Positions 55,225 through 59,941 of a stretch of 64,000 nucleotides of DNA are shown in pieces; the stretch's first letter is position 1, and each line of letters opens with the position of its first letter. Location of the stretch: the NCBI RefSeq assembly GCF_003576315.1, contig NZ_QWFZ01000003.1:868001-932000 (forward strand), read 5' to 3'. Source of the DNA: Henriciella mobilis. GTDB taxonomy: Bacteria; Pseudomonadota; Alphaproteobacteria; Caulobacterales; Hyphomonadaceae. The notes beneath the pieces were generated by a model. The model ran no database searches and was not told the DNA's origin. It worked only from the letters and a program-made list of their open reading frames with translations. The translations under genes and the position numbers were made by a program.

Positions 55225-56334
55225 TTAAACCTTCACTGCTTTACCATCTTGGACCTCAAAACGCTGTGCGCGGTCCCAGAAGGCCTCGAAGAGGAAGGCT
55301 TCCGTGCCCGTCAGCCAGGCCTGGCCGCCCAGTGCGCAAAGCTCGTCGAACAGGGCCGCGCGGCGGTCGGCATCGAGGTGGGCAGCGGCCTCGTCCAGCA
55401 GCAGGATGGGCGAGGGCCCCTCGCCGTCTTTCGCTAGCGCTGCAGCAGAAGCGAGGATGAGCCCGATGAGCAGCGCTTTCTGCTGGCCGGTCGAGGCATC
55501 GCCCGCAGGCATGCCGGTGGGGCGGTGGATGACAGAAAGATCGGTACGGTGCGGGCCGGAAAGCGTCCGTCCGGCGGCCATGTCGCGGCGGCGCCCGGTG
55601 CGCAGAGCCTCGGTCAGGGTTTCGAAGATGCTCTTGAAGTCCTCGCCCGCCATGGCAGCCTGCTCGGCTTCGCCATCGAGGGAAAGATCGCCCTTCGGAA
55701 AGAAGCCTTCGGGCCGGGCATCGACGGCAGCTTGCAGCGCTTCCAGGACATGGGCGCGGTTCACCGCAATCTCGGCGCCCGCTTCGGCCATCCGCGTCTC
55801 GATGGCATCGGCCCAGGCCGGGTCGACATGGCCGCGCTCGAGCAGCGCATTTCGCTCGCGCATCGCGCGTTCGTATCGCGCTGCCGCCGTGCCGTGCGAA
55901 GGGATATGCGCCATGACCTGCCGGTCGAAAAAGCGCCGCCGGTCTGACGCCCCGCCCCGGAATACCCCGTCCATGGCGGGCGTCAGCCAGACGATGCGGA
56001 TCAGTTCGGCAAGGTCGGAGGCCTGGCTCGGTGCGCCATCGATCCGCACGACGCGCTTGGAGCTGGTGCCGTCGGTTTCGAGGCCGACGCCGATCCGGCG
56101 GTCATCGACGGTTGCCGAGATGGTCCAGGCGCCGCCGGCATCGTGGCGGGCAAGATCGGCGAGGGTTGCGCTTCGAAGCCCGCGTCCGGGGCCGAGCTGG
56201 GAGACCGCTTCGAGCAGGTTCGTCTTGCCCGCGCCATTCGGGCCGAACAGGCAGACATGCCGCCCATCGAGATCGAGCGACAGCGTCTCGTAGTTGCGGA
56301 AATCCTTGAGGCGCAGGCGGGTAAGGGCGGTCAT
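55225..56334 (-). CDS. recF: DNA replication and repair protein RecF
   Basis: RecF is an SMC-like ATPase that helps RecOR load RecA at gaps. The 369-residue protein has Walker A LFGPNGAGKTNLLEAVSQLGPG, the signature region DASTGQQKALLIGLILA, and Walker B ILLLDEAAAHLDADRRA. The N-terminal start ALTRLRLKDFRNYETLSLDL is canonical. It lies 9 bp downstream of dnaN on the same strand and is the last gene of the dnaN-recF unit. Length is normal. Confidence 0.97.
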   Translation of the reverse strand: MTALTRLRLKDFRNYETLSLDLDGRHVCLFGPNGAGKTNLLEAVSQLGPGRGLRSATLADLARHDAGGAWTISATVDDRRIGVGLETDGTSSKRVVRIDGAPSQASDLAELIRIVWLTPAMDGVFRGGASDRRRFFDRQVMAHIPSHGTAAARYERAMRERNALLERGHVDPAWADAIETRMAEAGAEIAVNRAHVLEALQAAVDARPEGFFPKGDLSLDGEAEQAAMAGEDFKSIFETLTEALRTGRRRDMAAGRTLSGPHRTDLSVIHRPTGMPAGDASTGQQKALLIGLILASAAALAKDGEGPSPILLLDEAAAHLDADRRAALFDELCALGGQAWLTGTEAFLFEAFWDRAQRFEVQDGKAVKV

Positions 56335-56343
56335 CGCCCCCGC

Positions 56344-57462
56344 TTACACCCGAAGCGGCATGAGCACATAACGGCAGGCCGCATCGCCCGGATCGAGGAT
56401 CAGCGCCGGGGAGGCTGGATCATTGAGCAGGAATTCTGCGTCCTCGGCTTCGATCTGGGCGGTCACGTCGAGCAGGTATTTCGCGTTGAAGCCGATCTCC
56501 ATCGGCTCTTCACTATACTCGCACTCGATCTCCTCGTGGCCCTGTCCGGTCTCGGCGGAGTTCACCGCGAGGATGACCTTGCCCGGTTCGATCGACAGCT
56601 TCACCGAGCGCGAGCGTTCGGCCGAAACGGTCGAGACGCGGTCGACGGCGGCTTCGAAGGACTTGTTGTCGATGACAAGGCGCTTGTCATTGCCCTTAGG
56701 AATGACGCGCGCATAGTCCGGGAAGGAGCCGTCGATGAGCTTGGAGGTCAGGACGGCGCGGCCCGCGCGGAAGACGATCTTGGTGTCCGAAACGGCGATC
56801 GAGACGTCGCCGTCGACCTGGTCGATCAGGCGGCGCACCTCTCCGATCGCCTTGCGCGGGACGATGACGCCTTCAATGCCCTCGGCGCCTTTCGGGGCCG
56901 GGGCATCAGCGAGGGCCAGGCGGTGGCCGTCAGTCGCGACCGTGCGCAGGACCTTTTTCCCGTCGCTATCGGCGGCGTGGAAATAGACGCCGTTTAGATA
57001 GTAGCGGGTTTCTTCGGTCGAGATGGCAAAGCGCGTCTTGTCGATCAGACGGCGCAGGTCGCCCGCATCGAGGTCGAACTTGATGGCGCTGTCATCGCCG
57101 GTCATGGTCTGGAAATCGGTTGCCGGCAGGGTCGGCAGAGCGAATTGCGAGCGGCCCGAGCGGATGGAAAGACGGCGGTTCTCCGGGTTCAGCTCCAGTT
57201 CGACATCGGCGCCAGCTGGCAGCTTGCGAACCACATCGAAGAGCGTTCCGGCCGGCGCGGTGATTGCGCCCTCGCTGGACACCTGGGCATCGGCGCTGTC
57301 TACCGCCTCAATGTCGAGGTCGGTCGCCACGAAGGTGACTTCCGGCCCTTTCGCCTCGATCAGCACGTTGGACAGGATCGGAATCGTATTGCGCCGCTCC
57401 ACCACGTTCTGCACGTGAGACAGTGCGTTCAGGAGGTCGCTTCTCTCGATCGTCAACTTCAT
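56344..57462 (-). CDS. dnaN: DNA polymerase III sliding clamp DnaN
   Basis: DnaN is the beta clamp that tethers Pol III to DNA. The 372-residue protein has the three-domain clamp pattern: MKLTIERSDLLNALSHVQNVVERRNTIPILSNVLIEAKG at the N-terminus and the C-terminal DPASPALILDPGDAACRYVLMPLRV, matching the hydrophobic cleft and the final VLMPLR signature. A TTG directly before the ATG at 57462 is not preferred. It sits between dnaA (177 bp) and recF (9 bp), with probable co-transcription with recF. Confidence 0.97.
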   Translation of the reverse strand: MKLTIERSDLLNALSHVQNVVERRNTIPILSNVLIEAKGPEVTFVATDLDIEAVDSADAQVSSEGAITAPAGTLFDVVRKLPAGADVELELNPENRRLSIRSGRSQFALPTLPATDFQTMTGDDSAIKFDLDAGDLRRLIDKTRFAISTEETRYYLNGVYFHAADSDGKKVLRTVATDGHRLALADAPAPKGAEGIEGVIVPRKAIGEVRRLIDQVDGDVSIAVSDTKIVFRAGRAVLTSKLIDGSFPDYARVIPKGNDKRLVIDNKSFEAAVDRVSTVSAERSRSVKLSIEPGKVILAVNSAETGQGHEEIECEYSEEPMEIGFNAKYLLDVTAQIEAEDAEFLLNDPASPALILDPGDAACRYVLMPLRV

Positions 57463-57638
57463 CAATCAGCCCATATGCCGAGGCGGTCTTCCGGTCGCCG
57501 CCTTGTCCTCGTTGCCTGTAACCGTTCCGCCGAATGCGAATCGGCCCGCTCCTCGAAAGAAGCGGGCCGGATACCCTTGTCAAAATTGGCCAAATTGCAA
57601 GCCCCCGTCAGCCGGTTGAGGGCCGGATTCTGGGGAAA

Positions 57639-59105
57639 TCAGCAGTTGCCTTCAGCCTGTATCTCGAAGACCATCTCCCGGACGCGCTCGACATCGCGGA
57701 TCATGTCCGGATCGTCCTGCATCTCTTCCTTCACCTTGCGCCATGCGTGCAGCACGGTCGTGTGGTCCTTCTTGTTGAAGGCCCGGGCGATCTGGGGATA
57801 CGACTTGTCGGTCATTTCCCGGCAGAGATACATGGCGATCTGGCGTGGATAGCAGATCGAGCGGGACTTGTTGGCGCTTTCGATCTCGGTCTTGCTGAGC
57901 CCGAAAACACGCATCGCTGCCCGCTTGATATTGTCGAGCGACGGGGCCTGATACTCGCCCTGCTGGCGGCGGAGCACCGTGACCAGCATGTCCGTGTCCG
58001 GCTCAACCTCGCCATAGCCGGTTTCCGTCTGCAGCGTCCAAAGGACACCGCACAGCTCCCGGCCGGGGCCGCGAACGGTCGACACGATGCGGTCGATCAT
58101 TTCCTCGGTCAGCTCGAAGTTCGGCTGGTCCTCGCGGATCATCGCAGCGTGAAGACGCACGATCTCGCGGCGCATTTCCTGGTCCGGGAGGCCGACCTCA
58201 CTGGAAGCTGCGCCCATGATCTCGCCGCGCATGCGCTGGGAAAAACCCTTCAGGTCACCTGGTGCCTCATCAGCTGTCAGGACGACGCGTCCGCCCTCCT
58301 TGGTAACAGACCGGATGGTCGCGAAGAAGGCATCGTCCGTCTTGGCCTTGCCGGCGATCCACTGAAGGTCGTCGATCAGCAGCAGGTCATTGTTACGGAC
58401 CCACTTCTTCAGGTCGCGCGTGTCGCGGGCCATGGCGCCATCGACATAGGCGGTGACGAATTCTTCCGCGGTCATGTAGGTCACGCGGCGTCCATCATCG
58501 AGATGCAGGACGGCGTTCTCGATGGCGCGCAGGATATGGGTCTTGCCCGTGCCCTGCCGGCCATAGATCAGAGACACATCCGCCCCGCGCTTTCCGCCGA
58601 CAATCTCCATGGCGAGGCCGACGGCCCGCTTGTTGGTGTCACCGGTAACAAGGTTGGCGAATGTCATGCCCGGCACGCCCTCGGAACGCTCCGTACCGGC
58701 GGTCTCTTCCGCATTGACTGTCTGCCGCTTTTCGACCGACCAGGGATTGTCGACGAGATCGCGTGTACTGGCCGGAATATCCTTCCAGCAAGCGATCTGC
58801 AGCGCCCGGCCCTTCGGATCCGACTTGCGCCAGATGCGTTTGAGCAGCGGACGATGATTGCTGTTGATACGGTCAAAAGCGAGCTGGTCTCGTGCAGCAA
58901 TCAGGACAACGTCATCGACTTCCGCAACAAAGCGCAGATCCGCGATCCACTTGTCGAAGTCCTCGGCAGGAATCCGAACGCGGGTATCGTTCAAAACCGT
59001 ATCCCAGATCTCCTTGCCGCGATGAACATCCTTGCCGTCTTTGCCGGTCTGTCCATCTTCGTGTCCGTTCTTGCCCCATCTGCCAGATTCTTCATGGCGC
59101 CCCAT
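57639..59105 (-). CDS. dnaA: Chromosomal replication initiator DnaA (divergent)
   Basis: DnaA opens the origin. The 488-residue protein has domain I (WDTVLNDTRVRIPAEDFDKWIADLRF), Walker A GRQGTGKT at 182-189, Walker B LLLIDDLQWI at 241-250 and a C-terminal domain IV (CYPRQIAMYLCREMTDKSYPQIARAFNKKDHTTVLHA). Two features are odd. The box VII arginine finger (SR-G in E. coli R285) aligns with Glu295 in RMRGEIMGAA. In domain IV the GGRDHTTV signature is NKKDHTTV (444-451). It starts at ATG 59105 after AGGGG, with an unusual charged lead of about 30 residues. It is upstream of dnaN. Confidence 0.93.
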   Translation of the reverse strand: MGRHEESGRWGKNGHEDGQTGKDGKDVHRGKEIWDTVLNDTRVRIPAEDFDKWIADLRFVAEVDDVVLIAARDQLAFDRINSNHRPLLKRIWRKSDPKGRALQIACWKDIPASTRDLVDNPWSVEKRQTVNAEETAGTERSEGVPGMTFANLVTGDTNKRAVGLAMEIVGGKRGADVSLIYGRQGTGKTHILRAIENAVLHLDDGRRVTYMTAEEFVTAYVDGAMARDTRDLKKWVRNNDLLLIDDLQWIAGKAKTDDAFFATIRSVTKEGGRVVLTADEAPGDLKGFSQRMRGEIMGAASSEVGLPDQEMRREIVRLHAAMIREDQPNFELTEEMIDRIVSTVRGPGRELCGVLWTLQTETGYGEVEPDTDMLVTVLRRQQGEYQAPSLDNIKRAAMRVFGLSKTEIESANKSRSICYPRQIAMYLCREMTDKSYPQIARAFNKKDHTTVLHAWRKVKEEMQDDPDMIRDVERVREMVFEIQAEGNC

Positions 59106-59569: not shown

Positions 59570-59833
59570 TCAGCCCATCGCTTTCACACGTGCGGAAAGG
59601 CGGGAAATCTTGCGGGCCGAAGTGTTCTTGTGAATGACACCCTTGCCGGCAGCGCGCATGATTTCCGGCTGGGCTTCCTTCAGCGCTTCGGCTGCGGCCT
59701 TCTGGTCACCAGAAGCGATCGCTTCCTCGACCTTGCGGATATAGGTACGCATGCGCGAGCGGCGCGCAGTGTTCACTTCGGTACGGCGCGCGATCTTGCG
59801 CACCATCTTCTTGGCTGAGCGGGTATTCGCCAT
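59570..59833 (-). CDS. rpsT: 30S ribosomal protein S20
   Basis: S20 binds 16S rRNA early in 30S assembly. The 87-residue basic protein ([86 protein letters not shown]) is a full-length match. It is encoded just upstream of dnaA on the same strand, a gene order common in alphaproteobacteria. The hairpins at its 3' end separate its transcript from dnaA. Confidence 0.98.
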
Positions 59834-59941
59834 CAATAACTCCTGAGTGTCCGGTCGGACGCAAGCGGCGGACATACCCAAAGGCCTCAGTGCAGTCAAC
59901 CGGAACAAGCGGCCATGTCTGCATAAAGCGCGGTGAGGCGC

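Follow-up and report, generated by a model that had tools for sequence, protein, structure and literature searches.

The window analysed here, a 64-kb stretch of the Henriciella mobilis genome, contains one intact dnaA gene. The gene, its neighbours and the motifs of its product lie at the following positions.

57639..59105, minus strand: dnaA, the only full-length dnaA found in the genome (open reading frame 59105..57639, 488 aa)
56344..57465, minus strand: dnaN (sliding clamp), downstream neighbour of dnaA, named from its translation
55225..56334, minus strand: recF, downstream neighbour of dnaA, named from its translation
59570..59908, minus strand: rpsT (ribosomal protein S20), upstream neighbour of dnaA, named from its translation; the listed start is probably too early
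58539..58562, minus strand: Walker A GRQGTGKT, residues 182-189, intact (Lys188 in 37 of 37 family DnaAs)
58368..58385, minus strand: Walker B LLLIDD, residues 241-246, intact (Asp245 and Asp246 in 37 of 37 family DnaAs)
58206..58235, minus strand: box VII helix RMRGEIMGAA, residues 291-300, from re-reading of the sequence and alignment to solved DnaAs
58221..58223, minus strand: Glu295 codon (GAG) in the place of the arginine finger, which is R264 in B. subtilis, R251 in T. maritima and R285 in E. coli, from the codon and the alignment
58059..58061, minus strand: sensor II Arg349 in the motif GRELCG, intact (37 of 37 family DnaAs)
57867..57869, minus strand: Lys413 of the DNA-binding domain (Arg in 88 of 90 other alphaproteobacterial DnaAs read)
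57744..57767, minus strand: DnaA signature DHTTVLHA of the DNA-binding domain, intact on re-reading of the sequence

The product scored over the gathering threshold for all three Pfam domains, DnaA_N, Bac_DnaA and Bac_DnaA_C, with 90.7 bits for PF08299. Model positions 1-436 of 437 of TIGR00362 were aligned with an E value of 4.6e-96, and the score of 322.6 bits stayed under the cut-off of 343.9. This cut-off was missed by four of 143 genomes of the class, namely that of the present stretch (G000) and G032, G109 and G198, and the finger arginine is absent in all four. G000 consists of 39 contigs and is 99.99% complete, and a search of it found no second full DnaA, a gap between contigs being possible. 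Five further PF00308 matches in G000 lie in frames of 200-285 aa and cover part of the AAA+ model; we take them for IstB-like helper ATPases. Two 181-aa frames with equal scores match the DnaA C-terminal domain only (G000:C13:391116-391310 and G000:C36:250868-251062). In one relative (G010), about 20 frames of 301-303 aa, spread over many contigs, match the AAA+ model in part and are probably copies of IS21-type helper genes. When viral contigs were scanned for further DnaA rows, one locus was obtained, matching residues 401-480.

Re-reading of positions 58206-58235 on the minus strand confirmed that residue 295 is Glu, encoded by GAG, within RMRGEIMGAA. The earlier note had placed this residue at the arginine finger equal to E. 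coli R285, and phmmer alignments to five solved chains (three DnaA proteins) bore this out: the box VII stretch ran without a gap in all five, and counting along the alignments placed E295 opposite residue 264 in 8btg and residue 251 in 2z4r, the finger residues R264 and R251 of B. subtilis and T. maritima, respectively. The box VII arginine finger, which we used as a membership feature, is thus absent from this DnaA. E. coli residue numbers other than those taken from papers were counted along the E. coli sequence. An AlphaFold model built from a four-row alignment (pLDDT 50.3, pTM 0.28) was too poor for placing E295.

R264 and R251 are described as arginine fingers in the literature. B. subtilis DnaA R264A is reported to be incapable of origin strand separation and T. 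maritima DnaA R251A to be virtually inactive in unwinding, and E. coli with DnaA(R285A) survives only if its origin is re-engineered (PMC6727663). A review calls the arginine finger highly conserved among AAA+ proteins. Further sources on DnaA, HdaA and origins are PMC3836487, PMC2877005, PMC4468827, PMC10721633 and PMC10316083.

The remaining motifs of the ATP site and of the DNA-binding domain are retained, as listed above. Arg349 aligns with the RELEG arginine that corresponds to R357 of C. crescentus and R334 of E. coli. Outside the ATP site, the near-universal Arg at position 413 is replaced by Lys throughout the genus; by count, we take this position to be E. coli R399, the arginine of which presumably contacts the DnaA box.

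Alignment with relatives, as proposed in the earlier note, revealed that Glu295 is lineage-wide. It is present in 29 of 29 genus genomes read, encoded by GAG in 21 and by GAA in 8, while identity of DnaA to the query goes down to 51% within the genus. We then surveyed the order, where 61 genomes yielded 62 aligned DnaAs. The finger column (column 285) holds E in 34 of these, R in 8, H in 7, V in 5, Y in 3, D in 2, and Q, I and L in one each. In the query's family, the other genera have E in five cases and D, Q and V in one each, next to the invariant Glu of its own genus. Family f2 has H in 6/6 (first survey), f3 has V 4, I 1 and D 1, f4 has Y 3, H 1, L 1 and R 1, and f5 has R in 6/6. A class-wide search covered 143 genomes, three of them in the order; from the remaining 140 we read 90 DnaAs, namely the top 30 by score, most of those with the lowest scores and a few from the middle. 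Arginine occupies the finger column in 88 of these 90 and Leu in two. Arginine is thus absent in 54 of 61 genomes of the order (extra DnaA of G007 excluded) versus 2 of the 90 read elsewhere in the class, and the loss is far wider than the earlier note stated. The two DnaAs with Leu come from 0.9-Mb genomes of one family, f54 (G198 and G109; L162, L163), and probably represent a second, separate loss. One member of the query's genus, G007, has a second full DnaA with the arginine (contig C13, L238), the only such copy among the 61 genomes. It was rejected as a genuine paralogue since the genes of its contig are planctomycete-like, and we judged it to be contamination.

The earlier note had compared box VII with a "Caulobacter-type" sequence, RIRSRLAWGL, and this comparator turned out not to fit the Caulobacter group. 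A C. crescentus dnaA primer from PMC3193534 was used as a pattern on 390 genomes of family f2 and matched 17 of them at two mismatches or fewer, four exactly. Seven matching genomes were fetched and six DnaAs were readable, L231 being dropped because its frame after the match was 33 aa. Box VII is HLRSHLSAGL in all six, both arginine positions being occupied by His; sequences resembling SRLGWGL are those of other alphaproteobacteria. Among the f2 DnaAs of the first survey, all six carry Arg at 281 and His at 285. The sensor II arginine is residue 357 in five of the six C. crescentus-group DnaAs, matching the C. crescentus number in PMC3193534. Judging from these close relatives, C. crescentus DnaA itself would lack the finger. 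Since the DnaAs of the Caulobacter group are without the arginine too, the Henriciella residue appears as one step of an order-wide change and not as an oddity of one DnaA. In C. crescentus, DnaA(R357A) is reported to over-initiate (PMC3193534), and R145 of HdaA to be needed for the essential function of HdaA. Taken together, these two results indicate that the ATP state matters in a group whose DnaA would have no finger.

The evolution of the position was sketched with a quick DnaA tree of 69 rows, from which seven near-copies of the genus and the G007 contaminant were excluded; given its long branches and an outgroup that is not one clade, it is to be read as a sketch only. Families f1-f4 were grouped (SH-aLRT 98), and two changes between Arg and non-Arg were needed, which would fit one old loss of the finger and one regain in G047. 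Within the genus, G298, A299 and A300 are invariant in 29/29 DnaAs, at positions where the class has mostly W, G and L. Together with Glu throughout the genus, this points to a rebuilt motif and not to erosion or decay. The position of the other box VII arginine (R281) holds R in 14 of 29 genus members, E in 14 and Q in one, so that 15 of 29 have neither box VII arginine.

In a further step, we looked for HdaA, the inhibitor of DnaA that acts in RIDA (DnaA inactivation by Hda/HdaA). The cut-off of TIGR03420 (Hda), 194.8 bits, was reached in 0 of 61 order genomes and in 1 of 14 control genomes, and the G000 protein scored 102.9. HdaA was thus identified by Hda matches under the cut-off combined with length, a clamp-like N-terminus and AAA+ motifs. 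In this way it was read in 57 of 61 genomes, 51 of them plus 6 by eye (G023, G042, G048 and G056 were not included). The HdaA-like gene of G000 (L079) lies at G000:C33:413914-414549, and its product has the clamp-like N-terminus RQLALDF, of the QLxLxF type, and the box VII sequence DLASRL. Loss of HdaA as the cause of finger loss was therefore rejected, an HdaA-like gene being present. The box VII Arg of HdaA is found in 57/57. Its Walker A Lys is replaced by I, L or V in 28/28 genus members and is also replaced in 4/8 proteins from the other genera of the family, while it is kept in 21/21 of families f2-f5. Given the retained HdaA arginine and the C. crescentus R145 and R357A data, HdaA very likely still switches DnaA off by way of ATP hydrolysis on DnaA. 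The genus would present a reciprocal pair that splits one AAA+ interface, its DnaA having kept the ATP site and lost the finger and its HdaA having kept the finger and lost the ATP site. It is possible, and we suggest it tentatively, that the only canonical finger-on-ATP contact left is the one by which HdaA switches DnaA off, with self-assembly of DnaA at the origin being independent of a contact that is regarded as essential in other bacteria.

A candidate replication origin was found 371 kb from dnaA. Along 400 kb of contig C23, GC skew is lowest in the 5-kb step with hemE, and the gap between ppsR (named from its translation) and hemE, at G000:C23:554144-554499 (L249:4144-4499), combines this skew minimum with a TTAA-N7-TTAA site and TCCAC boxes and resembles Cori. 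The gap downstream of hemE was set aside because it contains a gene, which leaves the ppsR-hemE gap as the better candidate. Boxes with a TCCAC core stand at fixed places in this gap. We compared 30 origin regions, the best 30 of 60 hemE matches, which represent 28 of 29 genus genomes as well as G036 and G032. The motif TCCAC[AG], counted on both strands, occurs at 3.93 per 400 bp in these regions versus 0.27 for the reversed motif and 0.33 for letter shuffles. A CtrA-like TTAA-N7-TTAA site is present in 23/30 regions, compared to 2/30 for the reversed pattern. The three bases leading the TCCAC core are loose (GTG, CAA and AAT in G000), and this looseness goes with the Lys413 that replaces the class-wide Arg. 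Based on the conserved cores beside hemE, DnaA is predicted to bind these boxes.

The consensus box TTATCCACA was found neither in the candidate origin of G000 nor in the 64-kb window. The whole G000 genome (3.97 Mb) contains it 4 times, always on contigs other than that of the origin, versus 19 times for the reversed control, and summed over 29 genus genomes it occurs 272 times versus 484 reversed. Six of the 30 origin regions, all from relatives, have one TTATCCACA each. We thus rejected the idea that strong consensus boxes compensate for the finger, the box being rare in the genome and absent from the G000 origin. Some finger-bearing f5 genomes are low in TTATCCACA too, indicating that its depletion is not tied to the finger.

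From the residue, its conservation, the single gene copy, the retained motifs, the HdaA pattern and the conserved origin boxes, all read from sequence, we infer that DnaA assembles without a finger, and we propose what replaces it. In our preferred reading, which we hold to be probable, a marine Henriciella-like hyphomonad has this protein as its sole working DnaA, the ATP of which is sensed in cis and by HdaA, and assembly proceeds without contact between a finger and the ATP of the neighbour. The loss of the AAA+ arginine finger would date back to an ancestor shared by several families of the order, and Glu would then have become fixed at its position in the genus. DnaA would bind ATP and read it in cis through Walker A, Walker B and sensor II, and HdaA, being the one of the two proteins whose box VII arginine is conserved, would switch DnaA off in trans; the functions of HdaA and of the origin are putative here. 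What may drive assembly at the Cori-like origin, in place of the arginine-to-neighbour-ATP contact, is a combination of weak, spaced boxes with domain I contacts and bending of the DNA, and the rebuilt box VII surface [GSA]E[ILM]xGAA may contribute to it. A precedent for finger-free assembly is the E. coli origin oriC-allADP combined with DnaA(R285A).

Several points speak against this reading: changing the finger is lethal or inactivates DnaA in three distant bacteria with their native origins (E. coli, B. subtilis and T. maritima), another basic residue could have replaced the finger, and HdaA is identified by matches under the Hda cut-off together with length and motifs. A relocated finger, which we consider unlikely, would have a lineage-specific basic residue contact the ATP of the neighbour. 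Its best candidate would be R265, by count presumably residue 255 of E. coli, Glu295 then forming a pair with R265 or with a further basic residue; otherwise box VII R291/R293 or K/R at 290/297 could act, depending on the half of the genus. Indeed, residue 265 is Arg in 37/37 family DnaAs and Asn in 83/90 DnaAs of the class, and other family-specific basic positions exist, such as 193, 313, 345 and 380. Box VII has R291 and R293 in one half of the genus and mostly K/R at 290 and 297 in the other, and since these basic residues differ between the halves, a different residue could serve each of them. However, families f2-f4 are without Arg285 and yet have Arg265 in only 1/18. Moreover, none of the positions 288 to 301 carries a basic residue throughout the 29 genus DnaAs, so that box VII contains no shared shifted finger, and an interface position of the candidate residues is hypothetical. 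If the finger had instead become dispensable, with CtrA, proteolysis and HdaA carrying the timing, it could have drifted freely to H, V, Y, L and E. The spread of residues in this column over the families of the order (H, V, I, Y, L, D, Q or E) and the frequent CtrA-like sites in the origin regions are in line with this idea, but Glu in every genus member despite identities down to 51% is unlike drift, and we regard such dispensability as improbable.

The remaining explanations carry very little weight. That another DnaA or initiator does the work, with this DnaA being a specialised copy, would be in agreement with the arginine-bearing second DnaA of G007, but that copy sits among planctomycete-like genes and none was found in the 39 contigs of G000. 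The earlier note had offered "another DnaA does the job" as an option, and we now consider it highly improbable. Its other option, a change in oligomer sensing, is the more convincing of the two, and such sensing may work differently here. Sequencing error, pseudogene or misalignment could be suspected from the TIGR00362 score under the cut-off. These were refuted and are given practically no credence: Glu in all 29 genus genomes by two codons is neither an error nor the mark of a decayed copy, the alignment to five solved chains is gapless, and the other motifs are intact.

A literature search, mainly of open-access texts, found no statement that Caulobacter or its order lacks the finger, and novelty is unproven. 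Judged by sequence, an order with a leading cell-cycle model among its members has for the most part dispensed with a finger that E. coli, B. subtilis and T. maritima require to open their origins. This raises the question of whether the ATP-finger contact is needed to build the orisome or only for site recognition and initiation timing. A natural case makes the question testable through simple substitutions in Caulobacter, and it warns that the E. coli filament model should not be carried over to Caulobacter.

Compared to the bacterial DnaAs of E. coli, B. subtilis and T. maritima, the Henriciella protein has the same domains I, III and IV, Walker A and B, sensor II Arg and DHTTV signature, and its gene lies in the same dnaA-dnaN-recF order. 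In contrast, it has Glu for the finger, followed by G, A and A where the class has mostly W, G and L, as well as Lys at the R399 equivalent and a score under the cut-off of the curated family. There is also a likeness to C. crescentus. In both, the origin appears to be hemE-linked and has weak DnaA sites and CtrA sites, those of Henriciella being predicted. The box VII Arg of HdaA is present in both, and the DnaA finger would be absent in both, with His in the six group members. Henriciella differs in having Glu and not His in DnaA, an HdaA without the Walker A Lys throughout the genus, and Lys in place of the conserved Arg 413. As described in the C. crescentus literature, Cori has only moderate and very weak DnaA sites, and higher affinity can reduce replication.

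A further functional parallel is engineered. In E. coli oriC-allADP (Grimwade et al. 2018, via PMC6727663), low-affinity sites that bind ATP- and ADP-DnaA equally suppress the lethality of DnaA(R285A), and unwinding without filaments, through domain I contacts and possibly bending, has been proposed for this origin. Initiation without a finger, weak sites and domain I contacts would be common to both systems, as far as can be predicted for Henriciella. However, the E. coli origin was engineered, its ATP-preferring low-affinity sites having been made to accept both forms, and the cells over-initiate, whereas the Henriciella case is natural, HdaA is retained and DnaA itself is changed.
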